Source: a virus. Taken from it: a DNA stretch of 32,492 nucleotides. The translations under genes were made by a program, and so were the position numbers. Below are positions 373 through 32,281 of this stretch, in pieces; the first letter of the stretch is position 1, and every line of letters starts with the position of its first letter. Location of the stretch: the IMG/VR virus record IMGVR_UViG_3300017917_000113, positions 1 to 32,492 of that record, one strand, 5' to 3'. Under the pieces are notes generated by a model that was not told the DNA's origin, ran no database searches, and saw only the letters and a list, made by a program, of their open reading frames with translations.

Positions 373-384
373 AGTATTAGTATA

Positions 385-729
385 TCACCTTTCTTTATAC
401 CTATTTAACATATTTTCTATAAATACTCTTTTATCATCTGGTAGGGTATCTTTTATTGCTACTGTCTCTGGCTTTAGCATGACCATAGGTGTTCCATCCT
501 TATCAAAATTCATTTCTATTAATCCTTCACTCCACATTTGAAATGCCAATTCGTTGACAAACTTAAAGTGTTCTTGCCATAGTTCTGGGAGCAAATGTTC
601 ACATTCTGGGGTAATATTATAAGTAATTTGACCAGATATTGAGTCATACCCTACTACTTCTAATACTCCCATTTCTATTAATTTACTAACTATAGAATCA
701 TATTCTTCATTACTAATACCATCCATCAT
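385..729 (-). CDS. Winged-helix-like small protein between terminase and head genes
   Basis: This 114-residue protein has no catalytic motif. The N-terminal pattern (residues 6-45: EEYDSIVSKLIEMGVLEVVG, then a beta hairpin around DSISGQITYNITPECEHLL) looks like a winged-helix fold: helix, helix, then a two-stranded wing. The C-terminal half is acidic and helical. Similar small proteins are common beside large terminases in actinophage-like genomes, but I know of no assigned function. It starts with tandem ATG codons at 729 and 726. The first forms an ATGA overlap with the terminase stop, which implies translational coupling. A role in packaging or head gene regulation is only inferred from position. 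Confidence 0.7.
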   Translation of the reverse strand: MMDGISNEEYDSIVSKLIEMGVLEVVGYDSISGQITYNITPECEHLLPELWQEHFKFVNELAFQMWSEGLIEMNFDKDGTPMVMLKPETVAIKDTLPDDKRVFIENMLNRYKER

Positions 730-10909: not shown

Positions 10910-11866
10910 CTATTGTAGCATTGACTCTATTATGTTGTCAAATGATGAAACAAATTTTACTAAATTAGGAAACTTTAAATCAGACACATCTTTTACATTT
11001 GAAGGTAAATTGGCTATTATACATTTTCCAGGCCCCAGATCAGTTATTAGTTTATTAGACATATTTTTACCTGCATCATCATTATCGCCTAGTGCTATAA
11101 TCTGATTAAAATATTGTTTTAATAATCTTCTTTGCTCTTTTGATATAGTAGCACCTAAAGTTGCTACAGCATGACCACCTGCTTGTTCTATCATAATAGC
11201 ATCAAATGATGATTCAACAACAAATATTTTTTCTAGTCTTTTATTTCTATGAAGATTAAATAGTGTTTTACTTTTAGGAAGATTAACAGAATTTTTAAAT
11301 CTTTTTCCCTCGATTGACCTTCCAACAAAACCAAGGTAATCACCTTCTGGGGAGTGAACTGGAATTATTATCATATCTTGAGTTTCTGAATATCCTAGTT
11401 CATATTTTAAAGCACTTTCTTTTGTTATTCCACGATTAGCCAAATACTTTTGTGCTCTTACATTATTCATTAAATTATTATGTAAACTTTTTATTAGATC
11501 TGAATCAAATGGTTTAAATTCATTTTTATCTTTTAATTTATCTGTTAATTGATCAAGTATACTTCTACTATCTTTATTAGAATCTATAACTCTTATTGAT
11601 TCAAAATATGATTTTCCAGAAGCCTTCATAATAACCTCTGTAAGATCTTTTGATTCCTGGCATGAAAAGCACCAAAATATTCCAGTTTCCTTTGATACTT
11701 CTCCTGCTGGAGATCTTGTGTTGCTATGAAAAGGACAAAATATCATTAAGTCATTATCTAATTCATATTGTATATCTATGCCTGAAGATATTAGGCTTCT
11801 TTTTACTTGGTCTTCTGTATAATATGTTGTTGCACTGGCGTATTTTTGTCTATCCCTACTATACAC
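10910..11866 (-). CDS. DnaG-type DNA primase
   Basis: The 318-residue protein makes RNA primers for the replisome. The N-terminal CHC2 zinc finger is C44-x2-H47...C66-x2-C69 (IFCPFHSN, WCFSCQES). The TOPRIM catalytic domain has E218 in IFVVESSFDAIM and D261/D263 in ALGDNDDAGKN, the metal-binding acidic residues. It is half the length of cellular DnaG and lacks the C-terminal helicase-binding domain, as many phage primases do. The only suitable start is GTG at 11866, weakly preceded by AAGG, giving a 64-base overlap with the upstream gene. It is encoded near the DnaB-like helicase, its expected partner. Confidence 0.9.
   Translation of the reverse strand: MYSRDRQKYASATTYYTEDQVKRSLISSGIDIQYELDNDLMIFCPFHSNTRSPAGEVSKETGIFWCFSCQESKDLTEVIMKASGKSYFESIRVIDSNKDSRSILDQLTDKLKDKNEFKPFDSDLIKSLHNNLMNNVRAQKYLANRGITKESALKYELGYSETQDMIIIPVHSPEGDYLGFVGRSIEGKRFKNSVNLPKSKTLFNLHRNKRLEKIFVVESSFDAIMIEQAGGHAVATLGATISKEQRRLLKQYFNQIIALGDNDDAGKNMSNKLITDLGPGKCIIANLPSNVKDVSDLKFPNLVKFVSSFDNIIESMLQ
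10912..10941 (-). promoter_or_regulatory. Sigma70/SigA-type promoter for ssb and dnaE
   Basis: On the minus strand a perfect -35 TTGACA (10941-10936) is followed by an 18-base spacer ending in TGC and a -10 TACAAT (10917-10912). This combines a consensus -35 with an extended -10. It overlaps the last codons and stop of the primase gene. The predicted start near 10905 leaves a leader of about 36 bases with a hairpin and AAGGAG before the ssb ATG. It is the best-matching promoter in the window. Confidence 0.75.
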
Positions 11867-12099
11867 TTTGCCTTAGCCTTTCCAACATATACTCCGTATA
11901 CTGACAGTTTAAAATCAAATGTTTTTCCATTATATCCTATTGTAAAGTCTGGGTCAATATCATATCTAGGCACGTATCCATGATTCTTCATCACTGATAC
12001 CACCATAAATACGTATTGGTCTTTTAGCCTTACAATATCTGAGTCGTCATATATTTCGCCTGAAAGACCAAACCTTTTAATAGATCTGTGGCTATACAT
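11803..12099 (-). CDS. Conserved phage protein between helicase and primase (98 aa)
   Basis: I recognise the type but not the function. The sequence runs MYSHRSIKRFGLSGEIYDDS, then RLKDQYVFMVVSVMKNHGYV, then DIDPDFTIGYNGKTFDFKLS and VYGVYVGKAKAKCIVGID. That is a helix followed by about five beta strands. Similar proteins, from memory, sit beside primase in actinobacteriophages. No catalytic or metal motif is seen. The ATG at 12099 has no Shine-Dalgarno sequence, and a perfect TATAAT lies 6 bases upstream, so it could be made from a leaderless transcript. The 3' end overlaps the primase start by 64 bases. A replication accessory role is inference. Confidence 0.7.
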   Translation of the reverse strand: MYSHRSIKRFGLSGEIYDDSDIVRLKDQYVFMVVSVMKNHGYVPRYDIDPDFTIGYNGKTFDFKLSVYGVYVGKAKAKCIVGIDKNTPVQQHIIQKTK

Positions 12100-12105
12100 A
12101 CATTA

Positions 12106-12111
12106 ATTATA
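12106..12111 (-). promoter_or_regulatory. Candidate -10 box placing transcription start at an ATG
   Basis: A perfect TATAAT on the minus strand lies six bases before the ATG at 12099, in the gap after the helicase stop. No good -35 is seen at 16-18 bases (GAAGAT is the 17-base match), and the upstream bases are TGGC rather than TGn. Normal spacing puts the transcription start on or next to the ATG, so the product would be leaderless. Confidence 0.4.
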
Positions 12112-13904: not shown

Positions 13905-14450
13905 TCACCACGTTTCTTCTGACCAAACAGGGATAAATTCCCCATTTTTATTTTGTGTATATAACATTATAGCGTCTCCTATTAAAGAACGCAAGTCCCT
14001 TTCTGAAGGAACATCTTTTCTAGGTGTAATTCTACCATCTTTTCTAGGTCTTCCAATATGTATGTTGCACATAGCCTCACGTATAGTGAATAAATCATCT
14101 TCTGAGTAGTATGACATTTTTTGCCACGTTCTTACCCCACCCAATGTGGCACCAGTTGGTTTTGGTATTACCTCATTAGCAATCATTCTTTCAAATTGTA
14201 TCCTAGATCTGTTAAATATTTTTATAGTATTATTTACACTAAATGCCCTTTTTCTATGTTTTTTAAAATCAGAATATAACATAGATTGTTCTTTATTTAT
14301 AATATAGTTATATAAAGAGCATAAATTACTAGCCTTATTTATATGCAATACCCTCACTAATTCTTTATTTAAAAAAAATATTACATTGCTTGGCTTTATA
14401 GAAGGCTTCCAATTCTCTTTGCTCTTTGTATCTCTAGTCTCATTATCCAT
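13905..14450 (-). CDS. Probable DNA-binding protein with MerR-like region and AT-hook-like motif
   Basis: In this 181-residue protein, residues about 72-125 (IKIFNRSRIQFERMIANEVI, then a WQKMSYYSEDDLFTIREAM segment) resemble a MerR or excisionase winged-helix: an arginine-rich recognition helix, a VIPKPTG turn, then Y-x-x-x-D-L. IGRPRKDGRI at 131-140 contains GRPRK, the core of an AT-hook that would bind the minor groove of AT-rich DNA. The N-terminal third is unassigned. The start at 14450 has GGGGAAAG 6-13 bases upstream and overlaps the previous gene by 55 bases. As the second gene of the replication module it could be a regulator or an origin-binding factor; this is inference. Confidence 0.7.
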   Translation of the reverse strand: MDNETRDTKSKENWKPSIKPSNVIFFLNKELVRVLHINKASNLCSLYNYIINKEQSMLYSDFKKHRKRAFSVNNTIKIFNRSRIQFERMIANEVIPKPTGATLGGVRTWQKMSYYSEDDLFTIREAMCNIHIGRPRKDGRITPRKDVPSERDLRSLIGDAIMLYTQNKNGEFIPVWSEETW

Positions 14451-14605
14451 TGAATTCTTTCCCCGTGGTTGTTGGGATGGTTATACATTTCTCTTCTACC
14501 ACACCTTAAACAGTATAGTTCTAAATGATCGTAAGATAAAAAAACTCTATCAACAAACATTTTGGCAGAACATTTACTGCATTTTAAGGCTTCTTTTATA
14601 TTCAT
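14396..14605 (-). CDS. Zinc-ribbon protein, first gene of replication module (69 aa)
   Basis: C9-x2-C12 (LKCSKCSAK) and C32-x2-C35 (LYCLRCGRRE) form a four-cysteine zinc ribbon separated by two strands. A basic helical tail follows (RIQWIMRLEIQRAKRIGSLL). The function is unknown; such ribbons usually bind nucleic acid. The ATG at 14605 lacks a Shine-Dalgarno sequence but sits 8 bases after an extended -10 promoter, so translation may start on a leaderless or very short-leader mRNA. It follows the last tail gene and opens the replication block. The 3' end overlaps the next gene by 55 bases. Confidence 0.72.
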   Translation of the reverse strand: MNIKEALKCSKCSAKMFVDRVFLSYDHLELYCLRCGRREMYNHPNNHGERIQWIMRLEIQRAKRIGSLL

Positions 14606-14613
14606 AGTCAGAA

Positions 14614-14622
14614 ATTATACCA
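14614..14622 (-). promoter_or_regulatory. Extended -10 promoter at the tail-to-replication boundary
   Basis: On the minus strand TGGTATAAT is a perfect TGn extended -10. No consensus -35 is present, which such promoters do not need. The start would fall at about 14605-14609, on or just before the ATG at 14605. This is the only intergenic space between the last tail gene (stop at 14627) and the replication genes, so it probably starts replication-module transcription. Confidence 0.6.
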
Positions 14623-14626
14623 GATA

Positions 14627-15049
14627 TTAGGCTATACCAATTGCTATCAAGTTTATCTGCATATTTACAGAGCCAGTTGATCCAGATGGGAATTTAATAA
14701 TTCCGTCTACTCTATCCTTTGTTACTGATGTTAAAACTGCCGTTGCAGCATTTCCACCAGATACTGTACTTGTTATATTAGTGAGTCCGACTAAAGCCAC
14801 TGGAACTGATGTAAAGTTTGGATAGGTAAAAAAGAACTTTTCTTCAGGTGAGGTAGTAATATTATTTATGGTAATAGATTTAGTTTCTGCATAAAACTTA
14901 ATTGAACTGTTATTTACAGCAACTCCATTAACTCTTGATTGAGTGGATGTTAATTGAGAATTTTGAAGATCACTAACTGCCTCTACTAATGATGAAATTA
15001 AAGTAACATCAATTGGTTGACCACGGGTTGGTGAAATTATAGTTGCCAT
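14627..15049 (-). CDS. Minor tail protein, beta-rich, possible lectin-like tip (140 aa)
   Basis: This is the last gene of the tail module. The N-terminus (MATIISPTRGQPIDVTLISS, then LVEAVSDLQNSQLTS) is a short helix-forming part suited to trimerisation. From about residue 60 the protein is a beta sandwich-like run: FFFTYPNFTSVPVALVGLTN, then VTKDRVDGIIKF, then VNMQINLIAIGIA. The pattern F-x-F-x2-P-x-V followed by alternating strands and a late glycine resembles H-type lectin-like tips of phage fibres; this is a fold guess. It could be a host-recognition protein. The ATG has a strong GGAGGT ribosome site. Confidence 0.7.
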   Translation of the reverse strand: MATIISPTRGQPIDVTLISSLVEAVSDLQNSQLTSTQSRVNGVAVNNSSIKFYAETKSITINNITTSPEEKFFFTYPNFTSVPVALVGLTNITSTVSGGNAATAVLTSVTKDRVDGIIKFPSGSTGSVNMQINLIAIGIA

Positions 15050-15067
15050 AATACCTCCATTATATCA

Positions 15068-31574: not shown

Positions 31575-32247
31575 TAGTCAATCACCTCATAGTCTAGGCC
31601 TTCACCAATTCCAAAACCAGCCCGTTTAGCGGCCGCACCACTTAACGATACTATGTCGTTAGGATTATCAGTTTTGCCTTTGCTGAAAGCCTTGGCTTTA
31701 ATTCTTTCCCAAGCCTCTTGACTTTCGGACGAACTTCCTTTATCTATATCAACGCCTTGCATTGCTGCTAGGAACTTTCTATGTTCGTAGTCTTCTTTGC
31801 TTTTTGCTGATAGTATTGCTACCAACTCAGGCATCGATATGCTATTTTCCATTTCCTCATAGTTTTTCCAAAAACCTAAAAGGAATACTTTGGATTCTAG
31901 TTCGGCTAGATCTAGTTCGTCCCAACTAGAGCCGCCGCCAGTGCGTTTGGGTCGTTCAACTTAATACCCGCTGCCACTTCAATTATTTTATATACAGTTG
32001 GCAAATCAACAATATCTTCCAATTTTTCTTTTGTTGCTAATTCTGGGTTATATTGCTTCATTGCAATTACTGCACAGTCTAGGAGTAAATCCATTGACTT
32101 AATATTATCTTCTGATATTTTTTCATCAGAAATTTTTTGAAACTCTTTCATGAACTCTCTTAAAACTTTAATTTTAAGTGGTTTCATTTCTATCTTAGTT
32201 CCGTCTTGAAGTTCTACTTCTACAACTTCATAAACACTTGTTGCCAT
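31574..32247 (-). CDS. Tail assembly chaperone, long frameshifted form (G-T type, 224 aa)
   Basis: This product is read through a -1 ribosomal shift. Translation from ATG 32247 proceeds through N101, slips at C CCA AAC (31951-31945), and continues RTGGGSSWDELDLAELESKV, FLLGFWKNYEEMENSISMPE, ending at TAG 31574-31576. The -1 frame is open from 31960 down to that stop, and the part before its first ATG (31852) is clearly coding-like, so an independent start at 31852 is unlikely. The EHRKFLAAMQGVDID segment is typical of the T part of actinophage and lambda-like chaperones. The fusion binds the tape measure protein and tail subunits during assembly and is not expected in the virion. The stop overlaps the tape measure GTG. 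Confidence 0.88.
31904..31933 (-). promoter_or_regulatory. Predicted stem-loop stimulating the frameshift
   Basis: On the minus strand GGCT-CTAGTT, loop GGGACG, AACTAG, a four-base ATCT bulge and AGCC form a 10-pair stem. It begins 11 bases after the slippery heptamer. Downstream structures commonly stimulate -1 shifting, usually at 5-9 bases, so this spacing is slightly long. The zero-frame stop TAG (31912-31914) lies inside it. Confidence 0.5.
31912..32247 (-). CDS. Tail assembly chaperone, short zero-frame form (G type, 111 aa)
   Basis: The product begins MATSVYEVVEVELQDGTKIE, then PLKIKVLREFMKEFQKISDE, then a helical, acidic body (DLLLDCAVIAMKQYNPELA, LEDIVDLPTVYKIIEVAAGI) and ends LNDPNALAAALVGTN. 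The fold pattern (short strands followed by a helical bundle) and the place between tail tube and tape measure genes are those of the gpG-type chaperone that coats the tape measure protein during tail assembly. AAGGAGG sits four bases before the ATG, among the strongest ribosome sites in the window. A minority of ribosomes should shift at codons 100-101 to give the long form. Confidence 0.88.
   Translation of the reverse strand: MATSVYEVVEVELQDGTKIEMKPLKIKVLREFMKEFQKISDEKISEDNIKSMDLLLDCAVIAMKQYNPELATKEKLEDIVDLPTVYKIIEVAAGIKLNDPNALAAALVGTN
31945..31951 (-). promoter_or_regulatory. -1 frameshift slippery heptamer C CCA AAC
   Basis: On the minus strand the bases are CCCAAAC, phased as C CCA AAC in the zero frame, an exact X XXY YYZ site. 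After slippage both tRNAs re-pair with CCC and AAA. It lies ten codons before the zero-frame TAG, and the -1 frame beyond it is open for 123 codons. Confidence 0.88.
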
Positions 32248-32272: not shown

Positions 32273-32281
32273 ATTATAGCA
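32273..32281 (-). promoter_or_regulatory. Extended -10 promoter for the tail chaperone/tape measure operon
   Basis: The minus strand reads TGCTATAAT, a perfect extended -10. At 17 bases upstream there is only a weak TTTATT -35. The start would be near 32266, giving a leader of about 19 bases with AAGGAGG before the ATG at 32247. It lies just after the terminator that follows the major tail gene, so tail assembly genes can be transcribed independently. Confidence 0.68.

Follow-up and report, generated by a model that had tools for sequence, protein, structure and literature searches.

A conserved extended -10 element close to the start codon of a phage replication-module gene, and the leaderless or near-leaderless mRNA predicted from it

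More than 20% of genes in Actinobacteria are predicted to be leaderless, according to the accessible text of a genomic study (BMC Genomics 2011, PMC3160421), and in mycobacteria, where about 14% of genes are leaderless, such transcripts are apparently translated robustly (accessible parts of PMC7148126). Examples from phages have also been described: in the Cluster O mycobacteriophages the leaderless promoters PL1 and PR2, with a similar PL2, have been predicted (accessible text of PMC4351075), and PMC3160421 mentions in its accessible part a phage mRNA, that of lambda, that begins with AUG. The locus described here lies in a virus record of 32,492 bases with 31.8% GC (the window, meaning the whole stretch of DNA that was analyzed), whose real genes are all on the minus strand. 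We put at roughly 0.85 the probability that TGGTATAAT, a sequence just upstream of a zinc-ribbon-like gene, is an extended -10 element that is read by the host and gives a leaderless or near-leaderless zinc-ribbon mRNA, and that a second promoter of this kind stands before the gene that starts at 12099.

The zinc-ribbon and 98-aa gene starts in the window

The zinc-ribbon-like gene encodes 69 amino acids (14396..14605, minus strand; phrog_12850, of unknown function) with CxxC pairs at residues 9 and 32. Its ATG occupies 14605-14603, and the extended -10 element TGGTATAAT (14614..14622, minus strand) is separated from it by the 8-nt discriminator TTCTGACT (14606..14613, minus strand). A TGN directly precedes TATAAT in TGGTATAAT, as in the extended -10 pattern of sigma-70/SigA promoters. 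The preceding 140-aa gene stops at 14627, so the whole motif falls within a 21-nt gap. No 4-nt match to AAAGGAGGTGA was found upstream of the zinc-ribbon ATG; most neighbouring gene families have one. The initial annotation had reported a motif 8 bases before this ATG and the lack of a Shine-Dalgarno (SD) sequence, and the sequence positions confirm both; its +1 at 14605-14609, taken from promoter geometry, agrees with the predicted +1 of about 14604-14608 that a distance of 5-9 nt from the hexamer gives. The gene order of the module (zinc ribbon, HTH-like protein, small genes, DnaB, 98-aa gene, primase, SSB, DnaE) likewise strongly supports its suggestion that the zinc-ribbon gene heads the replication module. 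The second of these genes encodes 181 amino acids and overlaps the end of the zinc-ribbon gene (13905..14450, minus strand; phrog_9440), and a homologue in cultured Streptomyces phages is annotated as helix-turn-helix/MerR-like.

The complete pattern TGNTATAAT is rare, with four sites on the minus strand and one on the plus strand in 32,492 bases, and three of the four minus-strand sites (32281, 15067 and 14622) lie just upstream of start codons. At this density, about 0.02 sites should fall by chance at a distance of 5-9 nt ahead of any of 30 starts; two were seen, at 14605 and 15049. The minus strand has 31 copies of the hexamer TATAAT by itself. A mechanical sigma-70 scan of the region returned 36 sites against 43 expected from shuffles, which is no excess, and did not list the zinc-ribbon site, so the case for a promoter must rest on comparison. 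The zinc-ribbon promoter has no good -35 element: the closest candidate found by eye is TTGGTA with a 15-nt spacer, and the columns upstream of the -10 are poorly conserved in an alignment of motif-selected rows. A scan for terminators gave no site near 14.6 kb.

The second start of this kind belongs to a 98-aa gene between DnaB and primase (11803..12099, minus strand; phrog_17515), which also lacks an SD and has TATAAT (12106..12111, minus strand) 6 nt before its ATG at 12099. This is predicted to be the strongest leaderless gene of the window; with a spacer of 8 nt versus 6 nt, strict leaderlessness is less certain at 14605 than at 12099.

Conservation among relatives and alternative readings

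To place these starts in a comparative setting, viral contigs were scanned with the 69-aa protein (36 loci) and with DnaB (the best 80 of 148 loci), and a match to the 69-aa protein was found in 85 of these 116 loci plus the window. Loci were kept only when a start could be assigned no more than 20 residues from that of the query and at least 60 nt lay upstream (a rule that removed L071, with its badly placed start, from the zinc-ribbon set), and after removal of exact duplicates 39 distinct zinc-ribbon upstream regions were left, the window included. The relatives are not independent, and distinct rows differ from the full set by exact duplicates only.

Among the 32 distinct zinc-ribbon rows with at least 45% identity, all of which retain both CxxC pairs, 29 have TGNTA(T/C)A(A/C)T in the 60 nt upstream of the start. 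The promoter is close in 22 of the 32 (window included), at 6, 8 or 9 nt before the start codon, which is ATG in every one of the 22; none of them has an SD of at least 4 nt. The 6-nt spacer is found in five distinct relatives, and 9-nt spacers also occur in relatives. In seven of the 29 the extended -10 lies 23-27 nt before the ATG, four times with an SD and three times without; a leader of 23-26 nt was noted in L040, L047, L049 and L116. The three exceptions among the 32 are L055, in which the last base of the hexamer is changed, L013 and L067, and seven more distant homologues (37-40% identity) have no extended -10. Columns flanking the zinc-ribbon -10 vary; the rows used for column conservation (23 for the zinc-ribbon gene, 46 for the 98-aa gene) were picked by motif, so the motif columns themselves are conserved there by construction. 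The 98-aa gene behaves similarly: in 46 of 54 distinct rows a TATAAT-like hexamer precedes the start by 5-9 nt, and two of these 46 have an SD of at least 4 nt.

This spacing is not a general property of the surrounding genes. Of the 39 distinct upstream regions of the zinc-ribbon gene, 22 have an extended -10 at 4-10 nt from the start, as do 25 of 49 for the 140-aa gene, versus 0 of 353 in eight neighbouring families in which SDs prevail (g15517, g14450, g13902, g13702, DnaB, primase, SSB and DnaE; family A31852, a single row from the window and also negative, stands outside the 353). For SSB, 34 of 45 distinct upstream regions share a conserved extended -10 at a distance of 39-45 nt from the start, an ordinary leadered promoter. 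Furthermore, when pairs of a TATAAT and a downstream ATG starting a reading frame of at least 60 codons were counted in 11 long relatives and the window, a peak appeared at a spacer of 6 nt (37 cases, versus 0-3 at spacers of 0-5 nt). The 6-nt spacer was present in 11 gene families for TATAAT, versus 0-3 for eight permuted hexamers. The full TGNTATAAT is found 10-13 nt before a long-ORF ATG in one family of 18 and returns at 14 nt or more, where an SD fits.

These data bear on several ways of explaining the zinc-ribbon start. A fortuitous match in AT-rich DNA would be in keeping with 31.8% GC, with 31 minus-strand TATAAT hexamers and with a promoter scan that gives 36 sites where 43 are expected, but the comparison with relatives and controls refutes it: conservation in relatives, the spacing peak and the control families all speak against chance, to which we assign almost no weight. 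Alternatively, the zinc-ribbon gene might be translated only from read-through mRNA of the tail genes, by coupled restart across the 21 nt from 14627 to 14605, with TATAAT a by-product of the AT-rich gap. The short distance from stop to ATG, the tight packing of genes on one strand and the result of the terminator scan near 14.6 kb favour such an arrangement. Yet 29 of the 32 distinct rows retain the -10 with its TG extension while the flanking columns vary (in motif-selected rows), the eight neighbouring families have no such -10 at this spacing, and the promoter is also present in lineages whose leader carries an SD; read-through as the sole source is therefore improbable.

A different question is exactly where transcription would begin. 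It is quite possible, if short of even odds, that the promoter is real and its main start lies 1-5 nt upstream of the ATG, leaving a very short leader, which is a sub-case of the explanation we prefer. The commonest +1 is the seventh base after the hexamer, and the 8-nt spacer puts this base at 14607, for a leader of CU; the 9-nt spacers of relatives also point this way. The five distinct relatives with a 6-nt spacer argue for the opposite, with the commonest +1 at the A of the ATG, as does the T-A at 14606/14605, which in the window makes a favourable pyrimidine-purine start site. With the window's spacer of 8 nt, where the modal value is 6, a leader of 1-3 nt would seem to be as probable as none. 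The leaderless mRNA put forward initially is thus strongly favoured by the comparison in its leaderless or near-leaderless form, and strict leaderlessness is the less certain part, since the 8-nt spacer permits a leader of 0-3 nt. Counting against the leaderless reading are the 23-27-nt leaders of seven distinct relatives, the lost or altered -10 in three of 32, the lack of a good -35, the promoter scan with no excess over shuffles and the absence of the arrangement from the eight cultured Streptomyces phages described below.

Based on these results we favour a host-read extended -10 that yields a leaderless or near-leaderless message. A housekeeping RNA polymerase of the host (SigA-type) would read the element at 14622-14614, and transcription would fire 6-9 nt downstream of the -10, at the ATG or no more than about 3 nt from it. 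The zinc-ribbon mRNA would then begin with, or almost with, its start codon, and ribosomes would probably start at the 5'-terminal AUG, like those on other actinobacterial leaderless mRNAs, before reaching the SD-led downstream genes on the same transcript, from the HTH-like protein to DnaB. The second promoter, at 12099, would similarly drive the 98-aa gene before primase.

Further starts in the window and movement of start codons

The tail module ends with the 140-aa gene (14627..15049, minus strand; no Pfam or PHROG match). This gene has an extended -10, TGATATAAT (15059..15067, minus strand), with GGAGG directly after it, and the sequence GGAGGTATT (15050..15058, minus strand) thus places an SD in the discriminator position. 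A normal +1 at this promoter would exclude the GGAGG from the promoter's own mRNA, and the SD would therefore be usable only by read-through mRNA. An extended -10 is present upstream of this gene in all 49 distinct rows, at 8-10 nt in 25 and at 15-17 nt in 24; in the lineages with the longer distance, the SD lies between the same promoter and the start. Another extended -10, TGATATACT (379..387, minus strand), is separated by 6 nt from the ATG at 372, and the same 6-nt arrangement is found in four of 11 long relatives. The upstream ORF (385-729) uses the TGA of TGATATACT as its stop codon. For comparison, the extended -10 TGCTATAAT (32273..32281, minus strand) precedes a 25-nt leader with an AAGGAGG SD before the ATG at 32247. 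The zinc-ribbon start is one of a set of starts of the predicted leaderless type, to which 12099 belongs likewise and 15049 and 372 with variants.

The history of these arrangements was followed on a DnaB tree made by a quick method from 81 of the 112 sequences with DnaB (56 distinct proteins), from which L001-L036 were omitted to avoid counting contigs twice. The zinc-ribbon gene was close to its promoter in 36 rows, leadered in 7 and without the promoter in 3, with 35 not scored, and at least six changes were required; the 140-aa gene was close in 32 and leadered in 37, with 12 not scored, and at least five changes were required. The 98-aa gene has a close -10 (5-9 nt) in all 81 rows, so that its start mode never changes on this tree, from which eight distant 98-aa rows are absent because L001-L036 were left off. 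In those eight (L023, L025, L028, L031 and L033-L036) TATAAT stands 32-33 nt before a TTG start.

In all 29 rows, 26-42 nt separate the promoter from the codon of the first CxxC cysteine of the zinc-ribbon protein, whichever start mode is used; the cysteine is three codons from the start in leadered lineages and 6-11 codons from it in lineages with a close promoter. This constancy argues that the promoter is fixed and that the start codon slides. One virus group would therefore show a gene passing between leaderless and leadered initiation under a fixed promoter, as its start codon shifts by several codons and the sequence set free turns into a leader. We raise more tentatively, and with some doubt, the idea of a two-mode switch, in which a fixed promoter is fused to the start codon and lineages toggle by sliding the start codon rather than the promoter. 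If this were so, the gene at 15049 would be leaderless from its own promoter (TGATATAAT-GGAGGTATT-ATG) and SD-translated on late read-through mRNA, and the gene at 14605, with no SD, would depend on its own leaderless mRNA for efficient translation, leaving this replication gene quiet on the late read-through mRNA.

Host, kin and described leaderless systems

The host is likely to be an actinobacterium. WhiB (PF02467), suggested to be a key indicator for actinophages in the accessible text of PMC10202952, is encoded in nine of 12 records, the window itself being without it, and among 14 control genomes it was found only in Corynebacterium glutamicum. Matches to the 69-aa protein come from Streptomyces phages only (127 of 127 records), and those to the 98-aa protein only from phages of Streptomyces (127) and Rhodococcus (9). 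WhiB, these matches and the shared synteny together support the actinobacterial assignment. The same replication gene order is found in the Stanwilliamsviridae Streptomyces phages Evy, Coruscant, Gilson, Circinus, TunaTartare, Wakanda, Samisti12 and Comrade, a likeness of gene order and of DnaB (37-38% identity among the matches listed) from which we do not claim membership of the family. In these eight cultured phages the zinc-ribbon and 98-aa homologues begin inside the preceding gene or directly at its end, and a leaderless-spaced -10 was not found at either homologue in the eight records. The initial annotation had taken leaderlessness as support for an actinobacterial host; the host assignment gains from WhiB and the phage matches, and leaderlessness is weak evidence for it, because the cultured Streptomyces phages have no leaderless starts at the syntenic genes. 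In Evy, Coruscant and Samisti12 (L165, L166, L171) a TATACT box lies between the zinc-ribbon and HTH genes, just upstream of the latter; a GC-rich hairpin and a leader with GGAG come after it, and the site resembles a leadered promoter.

An attempt to find the host through a provirus or binned contig was abandoned: a search of genome contigs gave only helicases of 25-30% identity from many phyla, and for this reason we name no host. A phage sigma factor as the reader of these promoters was also set aside, as no match to sigma-70 region 2 (PF04542) was found in 12 records of unstated completeness. Tubulin (PF00091) scored above the cut-off in five of the 12 records (G001, G009, G015, G016 and G020; for example L207 17018-17497), and one tubulin-family protein of relatives has an FtsZ-like GGGTGTG stretch. 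In G009, G015 and G020, TATAAT stands 5-6 nt before a possible start of the tubulin-family gene, with AAGG ahead of that start.

The suggestion that the arrangement serves early translation before ribosome remodelling found no support. Relatives carry the same arrangement at one prohead-protease-like gene and at tail-fibre-like genes, names given from reading the sequences rather than from a family search, and an early-only role was rejected on account of these late-type (head and tail) genes. Nor is the idea needed, given that leaderless transcripts are apparently translated robustly in mycobacteria anyway.

The arrangement seems to be of a known type, leaderless phage promoters having already been predicted in Cluster O; a limited search of open papers found no report of them in the present phage group. 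What may be fresh for the specialist is the proposed two-mode start at 15049, together with the sliding of start codons. The group would offer a conserved, testable set of promoter-start fusions in phages of probable low-GC aquatic actinobacteria, and annotators of such phages may take from it that the lack of an SD does not disqualify a gene, whose start may instead be set by a -10 box 6-9 nt ahead of it.

Actinobacterial leaderless genes have TANNNT about 12 bp before the start, counted from the first T, with no SD and an AUG, as here (accessible text of PMC3160421); the first T of the hexamer lies 12 bp before the start at 12099 and 14 bp before that at 14605. The present cases differ in being phage-borne and in having the full extended TGNTATAAT in place of the degenerate TANNNT of high-GC actinobacteria. 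The Cluster O prediction, as given in the accessible text of PMC4351075, concerns five close genomes, whereas dozens of divergent contigs, and both replication and structural genes, are involved here. Set against that prediction, the present group also shows switches between leaderless and leadered starts. In lambda, a temperate phage of a proteobacterium, the leaderless gene is cI, whereas the candidates described here are replication and structural genes in phages of probable actinobacteria.
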